DNA from: Clavibacter sepedonicus
Lineage (GTDB): Bacteria; Actinomycetota; Actinomycetes; Actinomycetales; Microbacteriaceae
Assembly (NCBI RefSeq): GCF_000069225.1
Contig: NC_010407.1
Span: 1,364,001 to 1,428,000 of the forward strand
Direction: 5' to 3'
Length of the DNA: 64,000 nt
Shown: in pieces, positions 23,456 through 34,392 of the stretch
How positions within the stretch are numbered: the stretch's first letter is position 1
Layout of the letters: each line of letters begins with the position of its first letter
Position numbers and translations under genes: made by a program
The notes under the pieces: model-generated
Told to the model about the DNA's origin: nothing
The model's input: the letters and a program-made list of their open reading frames with translations, nothing else
The model's database searches: none

Positions 23456-24433
23456 ATGACCATCGCCGCCGACCCCGCGCCCTCCGCGGCGGCGGTCCCC
23501 GCGACCGACCGGGTGCCTCGCGACCTGCCCGTGGTCCTGGATCCGGTCGTCTGGCACGAGCGCGCCGCCCGCCACGCCGAGCGGGCCGACGCCTTCTCCG
23601 CCGGGTTCCGCGCCCGCCGCCTCGCGGGCCGCACCCACGAGGTCGACGACTTCCTCTTCACCTACTACCCGCACAAGCCGTCGCTCCTGAGGCGCTGGCA
23701 CCCGGGCGCGGGAGTCGTGCTCGCGGGCGCCGCCGCCGACGACGAGCGCGCGGCGTGGCGCTGGTACGTCGCCGAGGCGGCCGCCGCGGGGAGCGCGCCT
23801 GGCGGCGTGCGGGTCGATGCGTTCGCGTACCTCGCCGCGCGCGGATCCACCGCGTCCTTCATCGAGCGGATCCTCTCCCGCACCGCCGCGCGCCCCGGCC
23901 GCTTCTCCTGCTTCGGCCTGCACGAGTGGGCGATGGTCTACAAGGTCGGGCCCGGCGAGCAGCGGCACGAGCGGCTGCCGCTGCGCCTCGGATCCGCCGC
24001 CACCGACGAGGTCGTGGAGACGCACAAGCTGGCCTGCACCCACATCGACGCGTTCCGCTTCTTCACGCCCGAGGCCGTGCAGCGGAACGCGCTCGCGCCC
24101 ACGCGCGAGACGCAGCCCGACCTCGAGCAGCCCGGCTGCCTGCACGCCGGCATGGACGTCTACAAGTGGGCCACCAAGCTCGGACCGCTCGTGCCCGGCG
24201 AGCTGCTGCTCGACGCGTTCGAGCTCGCCCGCGACATCCGCTCGCTCGACATGCGCGCGAGCCCGTACGACGTGTCCGGCCTCGGGCTCGAGGCCGTGCG
24301 GATCGAGGAGCCGGCGGGCAAGGCGCGCTACGCGGCCGAGCAGCGCGGGTTCGCCGAGCGGTCGAACGGGCTGCGGACGCGGATCCTGGCCGAGCTCGAC
24401 CACGCCCGTCGCGCTGCCGCCGCCGGGCTCTAG
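23456..24433 (+). CDS. Conserved actinobacterial protein, usually labelled 3-methyladenine DNA glycosylase
   Basis: 325 aa. Features include VDDFLFTYYPHKPSLLRRWHPG near residue 62, RFSCFGLHEWAMVYKVGP near 148, HLACTHIDAFRFF-like KLACTHIDAFRFFTPEA near 190, and PGCLHAGMDVYKWATKLGPLVP near 222. I recall this family carrying the glycosylase name in actinobacterial annotation, but I see no helix-hairpin-helix or known catalytic site, so activity is unproven. Its TAG stop is the last three bases of CTAG, the 4-bp target next to the IS481 copy; the gene itself looks complete. Confidence 0.7.
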   Translation: MTIAADPAPSAAAVPATDRVPRDLPVVLDPVVWHERAARHAERADAFSAGFRARRLAGRTHEVDDFLFTYYPHKPSLLRRWHPGAGVVLAGAAADDERAAWRWYVAEAAAAGSAPGGVRVDAFAYLAARGSTASFIERILSRTAARPGRFSCFGLHEWAMVYKVGPGEQRHERLPLRLGSAATDEVVETHKLACTHIDAFRFFTPEAVQRNALAPTRETQPDLEQPGCLHAGMDVYKWATKLGPLVPGELLLDAFELARDIRSLDMRASPYDVSGLGLEAVRIEEPAGKARYAAEQRGFAERSNGLRTRILAELDHARRAAAAGL

Positions 24434-24477
24434 CTGTACTCGGCCGTGACGTTGGTGACACTTCGGGGCGTGTGAAG

Positions 24478-24528
24478 AGGCCTCCTGGCTTGATGGAGCT
24501 GTTCAGTTCAACCATCGCCAGGAGGCCT
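24478..24528 (+). repeat. Inverted repeat hiding the transposase ribosome-binding site (copy 1)
   Basis: AGGCCTCCTGGC (24478-24489) is the exact complement of GCCAGGAGGCCT (24517-24528). The second arm contains GGAGG, the SD of the transposase whose ATG is at 24531. RNA entering from outside the element would fold and mask the SD. Copy 2 has the same arms at 32699-32710 and 32660-32671. Confidence 0.75.
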
Positions 24529-24530
24529 CG

Positions 24531-25493
24531 ATGTCCCACGGTAATGCTCGTCTGACGGTTCACGGGAGGGTTCTCCTCGTGCGGCGGGTGGTGGAGGATC
24601 GTCGGCCGGTCGCGCACGTCGCGCGGGAGCTGGGGGTGTCGCGGCAGTGCGCGCATCGATGGGTGAACCGGTTCCGTGCCGAGGGGCTGCGAGGGCTGAC
24701 GGATCGGTCATCGCGGCCCCGGTCAGTACCGAGGCGAACGAGCCCGGAGCGGGAACGGGCCGTGCTGGAAGCGCGGGCCCAGTTGCGGGCGGGTCCTGCG
24801 CGGCTGGCGCCGGTGACAGGTGTTCCATCCCGTACGATCTCCCGCATCCTGCGCCGGCACGGGGCGCCGCCGTTGGCATGGTTGGACCCCGTCACCGGGG
24901 CCGTGATCCGGGCATCCCGGTCAACGGCGCACCGGTATGAGCACGAGCATCCGGGTGATCTGATCCACGTGGACGTGAAGAAGCTCGGGAGGATCCCGGA
25001 CGGAGGCGGCTGGCGGGTCCACGGGCGCAGCGAGCAGGTCCGCGGCCGCGGGATCGGGTTCGATTACGTCCATGCCGCGGTCGATGACCACACCCGTCTC
25101 GCCTACGCGGAGATCCATCCCGATGAGAAAGGCGCGACCGCGGCCGGGTTCCTGACCCGCGCAGCGGCGTACTTCGCCGGGCGCGGGATCACCCGGATCG
25201 AGCGGGTCATCACGGACAACGCGTTCGCCTACCGGCACTCGACCGCGTTCAAGAACGCCGTCCAGGACCTGGGCGCGCGGCAGAAGTTCATCCGCCCGCA
25301 CTGCCCCTGGCAGAACGGCAAGGTCGAGCGCTTCAACCGGACCCTCGCGACCGAGTGGGCCTACCGGCAACCCTTCACCAGCAACCAACACCGGGCCGAC
25401 GCGCTTGACCCCTTCATCGAGCACTACAACACTGAACGAATCCACTCAAGCCACGGGCTCACGCCCGCGGCCCGAGTGTCACCAACGTCATGA
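24531..25493 (+). CDS. IS481-family transposase, copy 1
   Basis: 320-aa DDE transposase. N-terminal helix-turn-helix (RPVAHVARELGVSRQCAHRW near residue 25) and a second (VTGVPSRTISRILRRHG near 90). The rve catalytic core shows D in HVDVKKLGRIP near 147, D in RVITDNAFAYR near 228 and E in WQNGKVERFNRTL near 265. Complete, ATG with SD GGAGG 5 nt upstream (within a hairpin arm). Same amino-acid sequence as copy 2. Confidence 0.95.
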   Translation: MSHGNARLTVHGRVLLVRRVVEDRRPVAHVARELGVSRQCAHRWVNRFRAEGLRGLTDRSSRPRSVPRRTSPERERAVLEARAQLRAGPARLAPVTGVPSRTISRILRRHGAPPLAWLDPVTGAVIRASRSTAHRYEHEHPGDLIHVDVKKLGRIPDGGGWRVHGRSEQVRGRGIGFDYVHAAVDDHTRLAYAEIHPDEKGATAAGFLTRAAAYFAGRGITRIERVITDNAFAYRHSTAFKNAVQDLGARQKFIRPHCPWQNGKVERFNRTLATEWAYRQPFTSNQHRADALDPFIEHYNTERIHSSHGLTPAARVSPTS

Positions 25494-25537
25494 CTCAGTA
25501 CATCAGCGGATCCGCCCCGTCGGGCACGGACGCGCGG

Positions 25538-26018: not shown

Positions 26019-27512
26019 ATGTCGATCTCCCGCCGCACCCTCCTCACCGCGTCCGTGTCGGGGCTGTCGCTCCTCGGGCTCGCGGCGTGCACGCGGACGA
26101 CGCCGACGCCCGCCACGCCCACGGCCACCGCCTCCGCGACGCCGACCCCCACGCCCACCGCGGGCGTCGCCGGCCTCCCGGATCCCGTCGCCTTCGCGCG
26201 CTCCGACTGGGCGGGCGATCCGTTCGCGCGCGGATCCGGCAGCTTCCTCCGACCCGGCGCCACGACCGCCGACCGCGAGGCGCTCGCCCGCCCGATCGAG
26301 GACCGCGTGTTCTTCGCCGGCGAGGCCACGAGCGCCGACCGCCCCGGCACGGTCGCGGGCGCCTACGCGTCGGGGCTCCGTGCGGCAGGCGAGGTGGATC
26401 GCGCGGGCGCCGGATCCGAGCGCATCGCGGTCGTCGGCGCCGGCATCGCGGGCACCGCTGCGGCCCGCGCCCTGCGCGATGCCGGGCACGACGTCGTCCT
26501 CGTCGAGGCGCGCGCAGAGCTCGGCGGCCGGATCCGAGCGGCCGGCGGCACCGACTGGCCCCACCCCGCCGAGCTCGGCGCGCTGTGGATCGCCGCCGAC
26601 GACGACGACCTGCTGCGCGACGCGCTCGAGGCCGCCGGCATCACCCGCTACGGCCTCGCGCTCATCACCGAGAGCCGCGGGCCCGACGGCGCGGTGCTGG
26701 AGCCCTCGACGGCGGGATCCGACGCCATCGCCGCCGCGCGCGCCCGGGCCCTCGCGCAGCCCGGCGCCGTCAGCCTCGCCGCGGCCCTGCGGGAGACCGG
26801 CGGCGACGCGCTCTCCACCGAGGGCGGTGCCGCAGCGCCCGCTGCCCGCCTCGCCGCGCTCCTCTCCACCGACGTCGCGATCGCCCACGGCGCGTCGCCC
26901 GACGAACTCTCGGGCGCCCGCGGCCTCGACGAGCCGGCGCCCGTCGGCAACGTCGCCGTCACGGGCGGCTTCGCGGGCCTCGTGCAGCATCTGCTGCGCG
27001 ACCAGGACATCGACGTGCTGCGGGAGTCGACCGTCTCCCGCATCGCCTACGGCAACGGCCGCGTGGGGCTGCGGCTCGGGTCCGGCGAGTCGCTCTCGGT
27101 CGACCGCGTGGTCGTCACCGTGCCGCTCGGCGTGCTCCAGGCGGGCGCGATCGCGTTCGACCCGGCGCTGCCGTCCTCGCACGACGTCGCCATCCGCGCG
27201 CTCGGCCCCGGCCGCGCCGACCGCATCTGGTTGCGCTTCGCCGAGCCGTTCTGGTCGACGACCGCCACGGTCTGGACGTCCTACGACGCCGGCGGGAGCT
27301 TCACGCGCTGGTACAACCTCATGCCGATCTCGGGCGAGCCCGTGCTCATGGCCGAGGTGGGCGCGGCGGCGGCGGACCGGGTCGCGGCCATGGACGACCA
27401 GGCGCTCCGGTCGGCGGCGCTCCGCACGCTGGCGCCGTTCGCGGATCCGGCGCTCCTCGCGGAGGGGACGGCCACCCCGGAGCCGGGCCCGAGCGCCACG
27501 CCGACGCCCTAG
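26019..27512 (+). CDS. Exported amine-oxidase-like flavoprotein with permuted domain order
   Basis: 497 aa. SRRTLLTASVSGLSLLGLAAC is a twin-arginine-like leader with a lipobox (Cys near 25), followed by a Thr/Pro linker. Residues 55-125 match the normal C-terminal end of flavin amine oxidases (DWAGDPFARGSGSF, then VFFAGEATSADRPGTVAGAYASGLRAAG). Only after this, near 137, comes the normal N-terminal Rossmann motif VVGAGIAGTAAARALRDAGHDVVLVEAR with ELGGR. The protein ends near the point where the moved piece would normally begin, with another Pro/Thr tail. All FAD motifs are present, so a working, circularly permuted oxidase is plausible. Substrate unknown. Confidence 0.8.
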   Translation: MSISRRTLLTASVSGLSLLGLAACTRTTPTPATPTATASATPTPTPTAGVAGLPDPVAFARSDWAGDPFARGSGSFLRPGATTADREALARPIEDRVFFAGEATSADRPGTVAGAYASGLRAAGEVDRAGAGSERIAVVGAGIAGTAAARALRDAGHDVVLVEARAELGGRIRAAGGTDWPHPAELGALWIAADDDDLLRDALEAAGITRYGLALITESRGPDGAVLEPSTAGSDAIAAARARALAQPGAVSLAAALRETGGDALSTEGGAAAPAARLAALLSTDVAIAHGASPDELSGARGLDEPAPVGNVAVTGGFAGLVQHLLRDQDIDVLRESTVSRIAYGNGRVGLRLGSGESLSVDRVVVTVPLGVLQAGAIAFDPALPSSHDVAIRALGPGRADRIWLRFAEPFWSTTATVWTSYDAGGSFTRWYNLMPISGEPVLMAEVGAAAADRVAAMDDQALRSAALRTLAPFADPALLAEGTATPEPGPSATPTP

Positions 27513-27561: not shown

Positions 27562-28272
27562 TCACGGCCTCGGCCACTCATGCCGGATCGCCTCCGCCGC
27601 GTACGGCAGGAGGCCATGCAGCTGCGTGTGCAGCAGGAGCTGGGCGTGCTCCTCGTCGAGGTCGAGCAGCGTGCGGATCCGCGCCACGGCCTCGGCCCGG
27701 GACGCGACCGCGGCCAGCTCGGAGACGAGGGGCACGAGCGCGTCGGCGGCGGCGACCCGCGTCCGGAGCCAGGAGATGCGGGCGTCGTGCGAGCGGCGCA
27801 TGTCCGAGTCCGTCGGCGGCCGTTCCGACCTGTCGACGGGGCGGCGGCGGGCGATCGCCTCGGCCGTGACATCCACGCGCAGGGGCCCCGCCGTGCGCGC
27901 GGACAGGCCGACGAGCGCGATGTGGAGGTCGTGCGGGCCGGGGCGGAGGGCGGCCCAGTCGCCGGCCGTGATCGCCACCGGGATGCGCGTCCGGTCTCCC
28001 GGATCCAGCGCCACCGCAGCACGCTGCCCGCCCGCGACGGCGAAGGAGATGCCAGGCGCGGGCGCATCGGGCTCCGTGAACGCTCCGATGGCGACGAAGG
28101 CGTCGCCCTCCCGTGGGATCCACCGCCCGGCGCCGACGTTCACCACGTCGATGACCGCGGCCTCCGGGTCGCCGTCGTGCGTCATCACGGTCGGCCAGCG
28201 CAGCTCGAGGGAGGTGCCGCCGTCGTCCGGGGATCGGGGGTCTGCGGAGGTGGTCACGCCCCAGGCTCGCAT
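27562..28272 (-). CDS. Unknown protein with GyrA-like C-terminal segment
   Basis: About 236 aa from ATG 28272 (GTG 28257 is another possible start). Residues 10-140 look like a beta-rich domain (LELRWPTVMTHDGDPEAAVIDVVNVGAGRWI ... DLHIALVGLSARTAGPLRVDV; quoted pieces under 20 residues apart: EAAVIDVVNVGAGRW, DLHIALVGLSART). The end, RIRTLLDLDEEHAQLLLHTQL, resembles the GyrA segment LLDIDEIQAQAILDMQL that follows the coiled coil. No TM or signal. Because of an upstream frameshift the open frame now runs without a stop from the preceding membrane gene. Function unknown. Confidence 0.55.
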   Translation of the reverse strand: MRAWGVTTSADPRSPDDGGTSLELRWPTVMTHDGDPEAAVIDVVNVGAGRWIPREGDAFVAIGAFTEPDAPAPGISFAVAGGQRAAVALDPGDRTRIPVAITAGDWAALRPGPHDLHIALVGLSARTAGPLRVDVTAEAIARRRPVDRSERPPTDSDMRRSHDARISWLRTRVAAADALVPLVSELAAVASRAEAVARIRTLLDLDEEHAQLLLHTQLHGLLPYAAEAIRHEWPRP

Positions 28273-28303
28273 GCGCGCATCCGTCGATGCGCGGCTCGGC
28301 AGC

Positions 28304-29076
28304 TCAGCGCTCGGCGGCCGCCGTCTCGCGCGGCGTCGGCGGGGACGCGTCCGTGGAGGCGCGCGCGGGCTCGTCCGCGACGGTCGCCTCATCCGCCTCG
28401 TGGTCGTCCCCGCGCCTCCCGCCCCGGGATCCCGCGGGCCGCACGCGGCTGAGCGCCACGACGAACGCGGACACCCCGCGAGCACGCCCGCCACGAGCGC
28501 CAGCCATGCGGTGATCTCGTACGGGACCCCGACCTGCGCGGGATCGAGGAAGAAGTACGGGTACCAGCCGACGCGCGGGCCGCGGTACTCCGTGAACGCG
28601 CACCAGGCGATCGGGAAGAGCATCGCCCAGCCGACGGCCTTCCACGTGACGCGCGGGCGGCCGGGCGCGAGGGTCCAGTCGAGGAGCGCGTAGGCGGGGA
28701 TCACGAAGTGCAGCAGCCGGCTCGACCACGGCACCTCCACGTAGTAGGCCTGCGAGCTCGACTCCAGCACGATGAGGCCGAAGACCACGCCGGACACCAC
28801 GACGTAGCTGAGCACGACCGCGCGCACGGCCGCCATGAGCTCCGGCTCGACGCGGCCGCGGAGCGCGTGCAGCCCGGACGCCGCGAGCACGACGGCGCCC
28901 GCCATCCCGCTCTGCGTCGTGAAGTAGCTGAACCAGTTCTCGGCCGCGAACGTCGTGAAGCCCTGCACGTAGTCGAAGTCCGCGACGAGCGCGGTGACCA
29001 CGACGAGCGCGGCGACCAGGCGCACTCCACCGAGGATCCTCTGCACGTGACTCCGATCGCGGCTGACTCCGGACAT
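28304..29076 (-). pseudogene. Pr6Pr-family membrane protein gene with a frameshift in the last TM
   Basis: From ATG 29076 the frame encodes five clear TM segments and typical family pieces (WFSYFTTQSGMAGAVVL, GWYPYFFLDPAQVGVPYEI). At the G4 run 28474-28477, inside TM6 (WLALVAGVLAG), the frame switches to Arg/Pro-rich sequence. One extra G restores VSAFVVALSRVRPAGSRGG and a normal stop at 28304. In the present sequence the frame continues into the downstream gene, giving a 504-codon fused ORF ending at 27562. I read this as a 1-nt deletion rather than a real fusion; a sequencing error is possible. Confidence 0.75.
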
Positions 29077-30729: not shown

Positions 30730-31764
30730 ATGACCGCCGAACGCCCGCCCGAGCCCCCGCGGGGGGCCCATCGCGACAGCGGCGACGTCTGGGTCGAGAG
30801 CCCCGAGGGGCAGCGCTTCTGGGGCGCGTTCGGCGCCGCGGGCCTGCTCGTGCACGACCCGGATCGCGGCGTGCTGCTGCAGCACCGCGTCGCGTGGAGC
30901 CACCACGGCGGCACGTGGGGCCTGCCCGGCGGCGCCCGGCACGCGGGTGAGTCCGCCATCGACGGCGCCGCGCGCGAGGCGGCCGAGGAGGCGGGTGTGC
31001 CGCCCGCGGGGATCCGGCCCGTCCTCGCCACGGTGCTCGACCTCGGCTTCTGGAGCTACACGACCGTCACCGCCCGCGTCCTCCGCCCGTTCGAGCCGCG
31101 CGTCGCCGACGCCGAGAGCATCGAGCTGAGCTGGGTGCCGGTCGACGAGGTCGACGCCCGGGAGCTGCACCCGGGCTTCGGCCGGGCCTGGCCGATGCTG
31201 CGCGGCGAGCTCGCGCGCGAGGTCACGCTCGTCGTCGACACCGCGAACCTGCTCGGGTCCCGGCCGGACGGCTGGTGGCACGACCGGGCCGGATCCACCA
31301 CCCGCCTCCTCGTCGAGCTCGACGGCTTGGCGCGCGACGGCCTCCCCGCCGCCGACCTCGGGCTGCCGGGGGACGTCAGGTGGCCGGAGGTCGTCGCCGT
31401 AGTGGAGGGGCACGCGCGGGACGCGGCGCTGCCGTCGCCCGCGCAGGACGCGGCCCCGCCCGTGCTCCGGGCACCCGGCATCTCCGTGGTCGCCGCGCCC
31501 ACGGACGGCGACGGCGAGATCTTGACCGTCGTCGCCGCCGCGCGGGACGCCGGCCGGGACGTCGTGGTGGTCACGGCCGACCGCGGGCTCGTCGCGCGGG
31601 TCGAGGAGCTCGGCGCGCGGGCGACGGGGCCCGGCCGGATCCGCGCGCTGCTCGACGCGCGCGCGGACCGCGACGCGGCGCTAGGTGTACTGGGTCATGA
31701 CGTTGGTGACACTCGGGCCGCGGGCGTGAGCCCGTGGCTTGAGTGGATTCGTTCAGTGTTGTAG
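30730..31764 (+). CDS. NUDIX hydrolase fused to a PIN/NYN-like domain, 3' end replaced by IS
   Basis: 344-codon frame. Residues 20-150 are NUDIX: GGARHAGESAIDGAAREAAEEAGV is the Nudix box GX5EX7REUXEEXGU. From about 160 a second domain begins VTLVVDTANLLGSRPDGWW, with DVRWPEVVAVVEG and DVVVVTADRGLVARVEELG, which matches NYN/PIN-like nucleases with Asp residues. After codon 317 the frame crosses CTAG (31681-31684) into the IS and gains about 27 foreign residues before a stop at 31764. The PIN-like core seems complete, so only the tail is affected. Hydrolysis substrate unknown. Confidence 0.75.
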   Translation: MTAERPPEPPRGAHRDSGDVWVESPEGQRFWGAFGAAGLLVHDPDRGVLLQHRVAWSHHGGTWGLPGGARHAGESAIDGAAREAAEEAGVPPAGIRPVLATVLDLGFWSYTTVTARVLRPFEPRVADAESIELSWVPVDEVDARELHPGFGRAWPMLRGELAREVTLVVDTANLLGSRPDGWWHDRAGSTTRLLVELDGLARDGLPAADLGLPGDVRWPEVVAVVEGHARDAALPSPAQDAAPPVLRAPGISVVAAPTDGDGEILTVVAAARDAGRDVVVVTADRGLVARVEELGARATGPGRIRALLDARADRDAALGVLGHDVGDTRAAGVSPWLEWIRSVL

Positions 31765-32754
31765 TGCTCGATGAAGGGGTCAAGCGCGTCGGCGCGGTGT
31801 TGGTTGCTGGTGAAGGGTTGCCGGTAGGCCCACTCGGTCGCGAGGGTCCGGTTGAAGCGCTCGACCTTGCCGTTCTGCCAGGGGCAGTGCGGGCGGATGA
31901 ACTTCTGCCGCGCGCCCAGGTCCTGGACGGCGTTCTTGAACGCGGTCGAGTGCCGGTAGGCGAACGCGTTGTCCGTGATGACCCGCTCGATCCGGGTGAT
32001 CCCGCGCCCGGCGAAGTACGCCGCTGCGCGGGTCAGGAACCCGGCCGCGGTCGCGCCTTTCTCATCGGGATGGATCTCCGCGTAGGCGAGACGGGTGTGG
32101 TCATCGACCGCGGCATGGACGTAATCGAACCCGATCCCGCGGCCGCGGACCTGCTCGCTGCGCCCGTGGACCCGCCAGCCGCCTCCGTCCGGGATCCTCC
32201 CGAGCTTCTTCACGTCCACGTGGATCAGATCACCCGGATGCTCGTGCTCATACCGGTGCGCCGTTGACCGGGATGCCCGGATCACGGCCCCGGTGACGGG
32301 GTCCAACCATGCCAACGGCGGCGCCCCGTGCCGGCGCAGGATGCGGGAGATCGTACGGGATGGAACACCTGTCACCGGCGCCAGCCGCGCAGGACCCGCC
32401 CGCAACTGGGCCCGCGCTTCCAGCACGGCCCGTTCCCGCTCCGGGCTCGTTCGCCTCGGTACTGACCGGGGCCGCGATGACCGATCCGTCAGCCCTCGCA
32501 GCCCCTCGGCACGGAACCGGTTCACCCATCGATGCGCGCACTGCCGCGACACCCCCAGCTCCCGCGCGACGTGCGCGACCGGCCGACGATCCTCCACCAC
32601 CCGCCGCACGAGGAGAACCCTCCCGTGAACCGTCAGACGAGCATTACCGTGGGACATCGAGGCCTCCTGGCGATGGTTGAACTGAACAGCTCCATCAAGC
32701 CAGGAGGCCTCTTCACACGCCCCGAAGTGTCACCAACGTCACGGCCGAGTACAG
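31685..32754 (-). mobile_element. IS481-family insertion sequence, copy 2 (1070 bp)
   Basis: Same length and ends as copy 1 but inverted, flanked on both sides by CTAG (31681-31684 and 32755-32758), a clean 4-bp target duplication. The right-hand CTAG supplies the TAG stop of the GDPD-phosphatase gene; the left-hand one is in the NUDIX reading frame. Differences from copy 1 are a handful of bases near the transposase 3' end. Recombination between the two copies would invert the 6.2 kb between them. Confidence 0.95.
31695..32657 (-). CDS. IS481-family transposase, copy 2
   Basis: 320 aa, same protein sequence as the transposase at 24531-25493, including both helix-turn-helix regions and the DDE residues. 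Intact, with SD GGAGG within the second arm of the 32660-32710 inverted repeat. Confidence 0.95.
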   Translation of the reverse strand: MSHGNARLTVHGRVLLVRRVVEDRRPVAHVARELGVSRQCAHRWVNRFRAEGLRGLTDRSSRPRSVPRRTSPERERAVLEARAQLRAGPARLAPVTGVPSRTISRILRRHGAPPLAWLDPVTGAVIRASRSTAHRYEHEHPGDLIHVDVKKLGRIPDGGGWRVHGRSEQVRGRGIGFDYVHAAVDDHTRLAYAEIHPDEKGATAAGFLTRAAAYFAGRGITRIERVITDNAFAYRHSTAFKNAVQDLGARQKFIRPHCPWQNGKVERFNRTLATEWAYRQPFTSNQHRADALDPFIEHYNTERIHSSHGLTPAARVSPTS

Positions 32755-34392
32755 CTAGGCGGCCGGAGCGGGCTCGGCCGGAGCGGGCTCGGCCGGAGCG
32801 GGCTCGGCCGGAGCGGATCCGGTCGGCTCGGCCGACGGGAGCGCCGCCGAGGTCGCGTCCACGACCCCGGCGCGCCAGAGCGTGTGCAGGGCCTCGGCGG
32901 TCCTGCGGTGGCGTGCGGCGAGCACGCCGCCCGACGCCGGGAACAGCGTGTCCTCGCCGTCCGCGTCGAGCACCACGCCGCCCGCCTCGCGCACGATGAG
33001 CGTCGCCGCGAGGTGGTCGACCGGCCCGAACGAGCCGATGACCGCGCCCGCGCCGTGGCCGAGCGCGATGCCGGCGACCGTGAGGGTGCCGGAACCCATG
33101 ATCCGCGTGGTGCAGTAGCGCGCGGCGAGCGCGTCGAGCAGCGGCAGCATCCCGGGCCACGGCGCGTGCCCGGCGAGCTCGGTGCTCACCATCCGGCCGC
33201 GGAGCGGATCCGCGTCGGGCGCGTGCACGCCGCCGGGCGTCGCCGCCAGGTCGAGGCGCGCGTCGGCGGACCAGGTGCCCTCGCCGGCCGCGGCCTCGAC
33301 GACCGTGCCGCGCCAGGGATCCGCGACGACGCCCACGACGGGCTCGCCGTCGACCACGAGGGCCAGCGAGAAGCTCGTCCACGGCACGCCGTTCGCGAGG
33401 TTCGCGGTGCCGTCGACGGGGTCGAGGTACCAGCACGGGCGACCGGGCACGGCCTCGCCGCCGTACTCCTCGCCGACGAGCACGTGGTGCGGGAACTGCG
33501 CGCCGACCACCGCGCGCACGTCGCGCTCGACGGCCCGGTCGATCTCCGTCACGTGGTCGGCGGGATTCGCCTTCGTCGTGACCGCGCCGACCGCGTGCGA
33601 GCGGACGTGGTGCACGGCGCGCGCGGCGAGGTCGCGCGCCGCGGCCCGGGCCCGGGTCCGCTCCGCCTCGGGGGCGGTCGCACGGGCGTCCGCCGCGGCG
33701 GGGTCGGCCCGCCGGCGCGCGAGCACCTCGAGGAGCGTCGTCAGCTCGTTCGTGGTGATCGCGTCCACGCCGATCGACGCCAGCCACTCCATCTGGGCGG
33801 GCTCGTCGACGGTCCAGGCGGCCACCCGGGCGCCCAGCCCGTGGACGGCGTCGACCAGCGCGCGGCCGACGACGAGGTGCGGCATGTTGACCACCGCGGG
33901 CCGGAGCTCGGCCAGGTCGTCGGCGGTGGGCGGCTGCGGGTCGGACCACGGCAGCCAGATGACGGCGGCCGGGTCGAGCTCGCGGATCACGCGCATGCCG
34001 TCGAGGTGCCCGCACCAGGCGACCCGCGGCGTGCGCGGCGCCGCGGCGACGACCGCGTGGGCGGCGGCGGCCGGATCCCCTGACGCCATGTCGATCACGA
34101 GCTCGACGTCGGTGCCCGCGAGGAGCTCGAGCGCCTCGGCCAGCAGCGGGATCCGTGAGGAGCCGCCGCCGAGCGCCCGCGCGTCAGCGAGGTCGAGGTC
34201 CGCGATCCGCGCGTCGACGCCCCAGAGGCGCTCGAGCGTGTCGTCGTGGAGGAGGACGACGTGGCCGTCGCGCGTGACGTGGACGTCGACCTCGATCGTG
34301 CGCGCTCCGGCCTCGGCCGCCGAGCGGATGGCCGTGAGCGTGTTCTCGCGGTGCCGGGAGGAGTCGCCGCGGTGGGCGGTCGCCGCGGTCAT
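32755..34392 (-). CDS. Fusion of glycerophosphodiester phosphodiesterase and inositol monophosphatase
   Basis: 545 aa. Residues 5-235 are GDPD: HRGDSSRHRENTLTAI with the catalytic His, EVDVHVTRDGHVVLLHDDTLER with the metal E-x-D and second His. Residues 255-500 are IMPase-like: LVGEEYGGE near 330, WYLDPVDGTANLANGVPW near 348, GSGTLTVAGIALG near 445 and GPVDHLAATLIVREAGG near 465. The tail is Pro-Ala-Glu repeats encoded by a 15-bp tandem repeat. Start ATG 34392 overlaps the ABC ATPase stop. The two activities in sequence would split glycerophosphoinositol and dephosphorylate inositol phosphate; that pathway is inference. The stop lies in the CTAG next to IS copy 2. Confidence 0.87.
   Translation of the reverse strand: MTAATAHRGDSSRHRENTLTAIRSAAEAGARTIEVDVHVTRDGHVVLLHDDTLERLWGVDARIADLDLADARALGGGSSRIPLLAEALELLAGTDVELVIDMASGDPAAAAHAVVAAAPRTPRVAWCGHLDGMRVIRELDPAAVIWLPWSDPQPPTADDLAELRPAVVNMPHLVVGRALVDAVHGLGARVAAWTVDEPAQMEWLASIGVDAITTNELTTLLEVLARRRADPAAADARATAPEAERTRARAAARDLAARAVHHVRSHAVGAVTTKANPADHVTEIDRAVERDVRAVVGAQFPHHVLVGEEYGGEAVPGRPCWYLDPVDGTANLANGVPWTSFSLALVVDGEPVVGVVADPWRGTVVEAAAGEGTWSADARLDLAATPGGVHAPDADPLRGRMVSTELAGHAPWPGMLPLLDALAARYCTTRIMGSGTLTVAGIALGHGAGAVIGSFGPVDHLAATLIVREAGGVVLDADGEDTLFPASGGVLAARHRRTAEALHTLWRAGVVDATSAALPSAEPTGSAPAEPAPAEPAPAEPAPAA
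32761..32820 (-). repeat. 15-bp tandem repeat encoding the GDPD-IMPase tail
   Basis: GGCCGGAGCGGGCTC occurs three times exactly (32761-32805), then once with changes (32806-32820). Read on the minus strand it gives the E-P-A-P-A repeats at the C-terminus. Fifteen bp keeps the frame, so copy number can vary. Confidence 0.85.

Follow-up and report, generated by a model that had tools for sequence, protein, structure and literature searches.

Here, we describe a flavin amine oxidase (FAO) with a rotated order of its parts, encoded in a 64,000-nucleotide stretch of Clavibacter sepedonicus DNA (contig NC_010407.1, positions 1,364,001 to 1,428,000; hereafter the window). The open reading frame (ORF) at 26019..27512 (+) encodes 497 amino acids (aa) and matches the Pfam family PF01593 (Amino_oxidase) with 165.7 bits at a curated cut-off of 19.8. 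In the canonical layout, the Rossmann part is N-terminal and the flavin adenine dinucleotide (FAD) block C-terminal, whereas in this ORF the C-terminal FAD block (aa 54-127) lies ahead of the Rossmann N-terminus (aa 134). Along the contig, PF01593 positions 369-442 match at 1390175-1390396, positions 1-55 at 1390445-1390618 and positions 199-364 at 1390946-1391440. The phmmer alignment with LSD2 (4gu0) is rotated likewise, pairing ORF residues 134-172 with chain residues 337-375, 313-472 with 528-692, and 53-126 with 700-773. Because the profile pieces end and start there, we place the cut between PF01593 positions 364 and 369; on the LSD2 chain, the match ends at 692 for ORF residue 472 and begins at 700 for residue 53. 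The genome has two further PF01593-type loci (G000:C2:2759333-2760808 and 3001175-3002533), each of which aligns as one stretch in normal order (1-436 and 2-443).

The protein starts with the leader MSISRRTLLTASVSGLSLLGLAAC (26019..26090 (+), aa 1-24), in which a twin-arginine motif (R5 R6) is followed at the conserved distance by the lipobox LAAC with Cys24, the pattern of lipoproteins of the twin-arginine translocation (Tat) pathway. All further features are on the same strand. A Thr/Pro/Ser-rich linker (26091..26177, aa 25-53) varies in length in the alignment, and residues 1-36 of the AlphaFold model have a predicted local distance difference test score (pLDDT) <50. Block A, normally C-terminal, follows at 26178..26399 (aa 54-127; pLDDT ~92-98) and contains W64, FAGEATS, PGTVxGAYxSG and most of the helix 112-129; its FAGE / PGTVxGAxxSG signature is present in a single copy. 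The junction of the old C-terminus with the old N-terminus (26400..26417, aa 128-133) leads into block R (26418..26588, aa 134-190) with the Rossmann motif GxGxxG (G140, G142, G145), the acidic residue E163 and GGR (169-171). A variable part of the substrate domain (26589..26945, aa 191-309) lies inside the model range 132-480 that was matched, as a range and not per residue, to LSD1 and polyamine oxidase. Block S (26946..27443, aa 310-475), which covers the substrate and FAD part as far as the new C-terminal helix, includes the codon of Arg402 (27222..27224), which aligns with the flavin-N5 lysine, and is followed by a Thr/Pro C-terminal tail and the stop codon (27444..27512, aa 476-497).

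All segments are thus present once, in rotated order and in a single ORF, with the old termini joined by six residues. The AlphaFold model of the protein (pLDDT 88.8, predicted template modelling score 0.85) has an amine-oxidase fold. By sequence or fold, the protein is closest among solved structures to LSD1/LSD2, spermine oxidase and polyamine oxidases, and nicotine oxidoreductase 6c71 was among the Foldseek matches of the model. As each block occurs once and the model is confident, sequence and predicted structure indicate that the ORF is a true circular permutation of an FAO, not a fragment or an artefact, and that the protein most likely retains the fold of a single FAD enzyme. The original prediction, which had claimed a permuted order, intact FAD motifs in a true permutation and a lipoprotein leader, is borne out in all three respects. 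It had also put the C-terminal block first, at residues 55-125, bounds that are here corrected to 54-127.

Three profiles from one alignment, A (moved block), R (Rossmann) and S (substrate/FAD part), were applied to 322 distinct proteins from three homologue searches (best 120 matches of each), a set that favours permuted proteins because it holds the best matches to a permuted query. The order A-R-S was found in 319 of them, the other three being fragments (P0015, P0016, P0164), and canonical relatives scored with the same profiles read R-S-A. Within the genus, a full-length, stop-free copy is present in 17 of 18 genomes, the window's own included; the exception (G002), assembled in 620 contigs, has no more than a weak partial match. 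The named matches of >75% identity are Clavibacter proteins at 78-88%. The mean ratio of nonsynonymous to synonymous substitution rates (dN/dS) among the 17 genus copies is 0.25, indicating purifying selection, with 0.22 for the leader, 0.27 for the linker, 0.125 for the moved block (aa 51-127), 0.069 for the junction (six codons only), 0.245 for the main part and 0.71 for the tail. Thr/Pro linkers had been predicted for both new ends and do flank them here, but the tail is weakly constrained, poorly conserved in length and sequence, and short or absent in many aligned relatives. The alignment is also poorly conserved at aa 191-309. In a 73-row alignment of selected full-length homologues, the FAD motifs are invariant. 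Among 106 hand-picked rows (62 permuted and 44 canonical; 28 of 134 rows were dropped), G140, G142, G145, E163, G170, R171 and G187 are present in all rows of both orders, and G169 in 62/62 permuted and 43/44 canonical rows.

Cys24 is invariant in the 73-row alignment, where R5/R6 reach 90% or more, and it is present in 17/17 genus copies. By simple home-made patterns, applied to database entries whose start sites are possibly wrong, 273 of the 319 full-length homologues have the Tat motif. Twin-arginine motif and lipobox occur together in 113 of 118 full-length proteins of the first homologue set and in 62 of the 81 additions from the second search; in the set of a divergent type, the twin-arginine motif was found in 98 of 120 proteins and the lipobox in only one. 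By these patterns, homologues of the Microbacteriaceae type are mostly lipoproteins. By eye, no leader was seen in the f15 and f16 members and in two of the three Pseudomonadota members, and since some permuted members lack a leader, permutation and export are separable. For the protein in the window, the Tat motif with its lipobox makes export in the folded state, together with its FAD, most likely, with lipid anchoring to the membrane's outer face.

Homologues with the same order are present in other Microbacteriaceae, where the original prediction had proposed to search for them, but this scope was too narrow: the permuted form is not confined to that family and also occurs in other classes of Actinomycetota and in a few Pseudomonadota. 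Of 299 genomes of the family, 134 gave a match at the 1e-20 threshold. Counted by hand among the matches listed, as for all counts of permuted genomes in family, order, class and phylum, 98 genomes had one junction-crossing stretch, and G077 and G255 had a shorter one; the other main matches listed begin at the Rossmann part or close to it, like canonical proteins. Beyond the family, the order search (396 genomes) listed junction-crossing matches for 4 genomes, the class search (394 genomes) for 12 and the phylum search (396 genomes) for 6; these searches overlap, include family members and have limits of 1e-30 or 1e-40 that weaker relatives would escape. The outside-family loci that were retrieved, including that of G1191, are A-R-S; G1358 has only A-R in a 290-aa frame. 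The permuted form was found in 3 of 200 genomes of Pseudomonadota at 1e-20 (G1500, G1573, G1584; all A-R-S), in none of 98 genomes of Cyanobacteriota and in none of 109 genomes of Bacteroidota. Among the matches listed at 1e-15 for 38 genomes reached via named loci, only those of the Actinomycetota G1401 and G1402 cross the junction, and the A-R-S loci among the matches listed in the named-genome scan are all from Actinomycetota. The junction region of the divergent type had 1735 matches at 1e-3, some of them perhaps half matches; all of the best 120 read A-R-S, with one match named Candidatus Nanopelagicales and another from a freshwater metagenome. Three candidates whose doubtful matches seemed to begin ahead of the Rossmann part (G311, G751, G854) were rejected, as the retrieved sequences are canonical (R-S-A). 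Spread on plasmids was likewise dismissed, the window protein having no match in a plasmid collection at 1e-15.

Some permuted oxidases are placed apart from their hosts. Those of two family members with small genomes (L154 and L155, from G243 with 1.3 Mb and G324 with 1.8 Mb) and of a Microbacterium metagenome-assembled genome (L077, 3.1 Mb) cluster with oxidases of other families (L166, L177) and not with the main Microbacteriaceae clade, which suggests transfer. The permuted oxidases L150-L153, from two families of Actinomycetota and with no evident leader, group with L196-L197 of Pseudomonadota (Shimodaira-Hasegawa-like approximate likelihood ratio test 100), possibly reflecting another transfer.

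In the neighbourhood, a membrane protein of the Pr6Pr family (NF038065) is encoded at 28400-29076 (-), convergent to the oxidase. In a comparison of BLAST-conserved neighbours at 36 loci, a Pr6Pr homologue lies near the oxidase at 18 loci, all of Microbacteriaceae and the window included, and the remaining wide neighbour clusters resemble antisense frames. Because the only widely recurring neighbour is this convergent gene, we propose no operon partner. The N-terminal part of the 504-aa frame 27562-29076 (-) contains the Pr6Pr membrane domain, and the sequence after it looks unrelated; the frame may be two genes or be joined by a shift. The oxidase and its neighbours are flanked by inverted copies at 24430-25508 (+), encoding an IS481-type transposase, and 31679-32758 (-), with 99.63% identity over 1080 bp; other genomes of the genus also carry the oxidase gene.

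One residue departs from the superfamily pattern. By the numbering of LSD1 and polyamine oxidase, we take one alignment column to hold the N5 lysine, the residue bridged by water to flavin N5. This column is K in 38/44 canonical versus 32/62 permuted rows, the remaining permuted rows having T (13), R (6), V (4), Q (4), L (2) or A (1). In the window it is Arg402, and R is found in 17/17 genus copies; many other Microbacteriaceae have T, V, Q, L or A, and permuted rows outside the family mostly K. According to PMC12272882, the N5 lysine is present in nearly all FAOs and is critical for accelerating the reaction with O2 in several oxidases. Given the wording 'nearly all', we treat the lysine as typical of the superfamily and not as defining it. 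Its replacement by Arg402 would imply a dehydrogenase with a slow O2 reaction, and our preferred reading is an amine dehydrogenase that is lipid-anchored and makes weak use of O2.

Taken together, these findings are probably best explained by a natural circular permutation that has kept the FAD fold, in an amine dehydrogenase exported and lipid-anchored at the membrane. The rearrangement probably goes back to a tandem duplication and fusion, after which both outer parts were lost. The old termini would thereby have become joined through a short linker, and the new termini would have opened between the last helix of the substrate domain and the Trp64 strand. An extracytoplasmic amine would most likely be oxidized by hydride transfer to FAD, the electrons probably passing to an acceptor other than O2, as in a dehydrogenase rather than an H2O2-forming oxidase. 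Several points weigh against this explanation. Export and lipidation are predicted from motifs, and the position of block A in the fold depends on the confidence of the model, the aligners used being sequential. Arginine is also positively charged and may stand in for lysine, thereby preserving oxidase activity, and about half of the permuted rows keep the lysine. The convergent Pr6Pr gene, the sole conserved neighbour, yields no partner.

The rearranged order could in principle stem from an assembly artefact or a fusion of neighbouring fragments, for which we found nothing supportive beyond the flanking inverted insertion sequence pair. Against it, 319 of 322 proteins of diverse origin share the order, and full-length single ORFs occur across many genera, several of the genomes consisting of one contig; this reading is ruled out for practical purposes. 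The original prediction had named artefactual or adjacent fragments and a second C-terminal FAD motif as evidence that would count against it; a second A block was found in none of the 322 homologues and in none of the scanned locus frames, and a remnant with such a block was dismissed on the same grounds. It is also improbable that the protein is a degenerate non-enzyme, an FAD-binding remnant that serves some other membrane role: the poor conservation of aa 191-309 and the loss of the N5 lysine fit such decay, whereas purifying selection, the invariant FAD motifs and the broad retention of the gene do not. That the protein is a genuine polyamine or monoamine oxidase producing H2O2, with Arg402 in place of the lysine, is a more serious though still unlikely alternative. 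Its nearest structures are those of LSD1/LSD2 and of spermine and polyamine oxidases, and permuted proteins beyond the Microbacteriaceae mostly retain the lysine; however, the arginine is fixed in the genus copies, and other residues occupy the column in many Microbacteriaceae, at a position where a lysine is reported to be critical for rapid reaction with O2 in several oxidases.

Another alternative concerns origin and holds that the permuted form arose repeatedly or was partly reversed, so that no single ancestral permutation unites its groups. Free quick trees of 106 and 78 rows contain five changes of order, and a careful 78-row tree contains three, with the permuted proteins forming one clade in 0/200 bootstrap trees; the second quick tree and the careful tree used 45 permuted and 33 canonical hand-chosen rows, with Microbacteriaceae thinned. 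Constraining the careful tree to one clade lowered the likelihood by 7.18 log units, yet the approximately unbiased (AU) test retained that topology (p-AU 0.342), and one-clade trees even outscored the free quick trees (+10.56, p-AU 0.686; +23.38, p-AU 0.803). Backbone support is weak. In the alignment, the permuted groups have the same two breakpoints, and the distance from the last SG of block A to GxGxxG is 21 residues at 21/23 loci of the main group (26 at one, one not scored) and 18-24 residues at loci of the other permuted groups. Of 199 proteins, 182 have a junction of 21 residues and 13 one of 26, lengths of 32 and 12 occur once each and two were not scored; 116 of 120 further proteins have 20. 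The shared cut and the similar junction length are in favour of a single origin, and no duplicated intermediate was seen. Overall, a single origin is neither rejected by the AU test nor established by the trees. We consider repeated origin possible but doubtful. Only tentatively do we propose that an ancient single permutation founded a lineage of its own among the FAOs, which today extends over several classes of Actinomycetota and a few Pseudomonadota, that its termini were used for Tat lipoprotein anchoring and that Microbacteriaceae turned the oxidase into a dehydrogenase by loss of the N5 lysine.

The open-access full-text literature, to which our search was confined (subscription papers and preprints were outside its scope), contained no description of a natural permuted amine oxidase, in agreement with the earlier statement that no case with this order was known. 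The main text of a study with a polyamine oxidase tree (PMC7576179) does not contain 'permut', and LucY, described in PMC4408115, is an engineered permutation of MurB. Annotation by domain lists conceals the rearrangement, and database names of the homologues are ordinary ('FAD-dependent oxidoreductase', 'flavin monoamine oxidase family protein', 'monoamine oxidase'). A broad and conserved set of proteins with a rotated layout is a natural experiment on folding order, and also informs on Tat export of folded flavoproteins and the placement of membrane anchors. The mixed state of the N5 lysine makes the control of oxidase versus dehydrogenase activity testable inside one family.

The amine oxidase superfamily, with monoamine oxidase (MAO), LSD1 and the polyamine oxidases, consists of textbook flavoenzymes with a fixed N-to-C layout. 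With its PF01593 members (LSD1/LSD2, maize polyamine oxidase, spermine oxidase, MAO), the protein described here has in common GxGxxG, GGR, FAGE and PGTVxGAxxSG as well as the fold over model residues 132-480, LSD2 and LSD1 being the nearest solved structures. It differs in order, the superfamily having the Rossmann part, the substrate domain and then the C-terminal block, and in its lipoprotein leader and the exchange of the N5 lysine for arginine. Within the same bacterial family, canonical relatives (L021, L023, L164, L165) have the same three blocks once each, but in the order R-S-A and with K at the N5 column; L021 has no evident leader. The FAO fold is also common to the nicotine-degrading FAOs of the NicA2 group, which have low O2 reactivity and canonical order, and to which the Foldseek match 6c71, presumably NicA2 itself, belongs. 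The literature on FAOs with low O2 reactivity suggests that FAOs can act as dehydrogenases, and the ancestral FAO models described there keep the lysine (Lys340), unlike the protein with Arg402. A comparable rearrangement, with fold and cofactor binding kept, is described in PMC1282579 for DNA/RNA methyltransferases, some of which are naturally permuted; these belong to an unrelated family and bind S-adenosylmethionine as cofactor.
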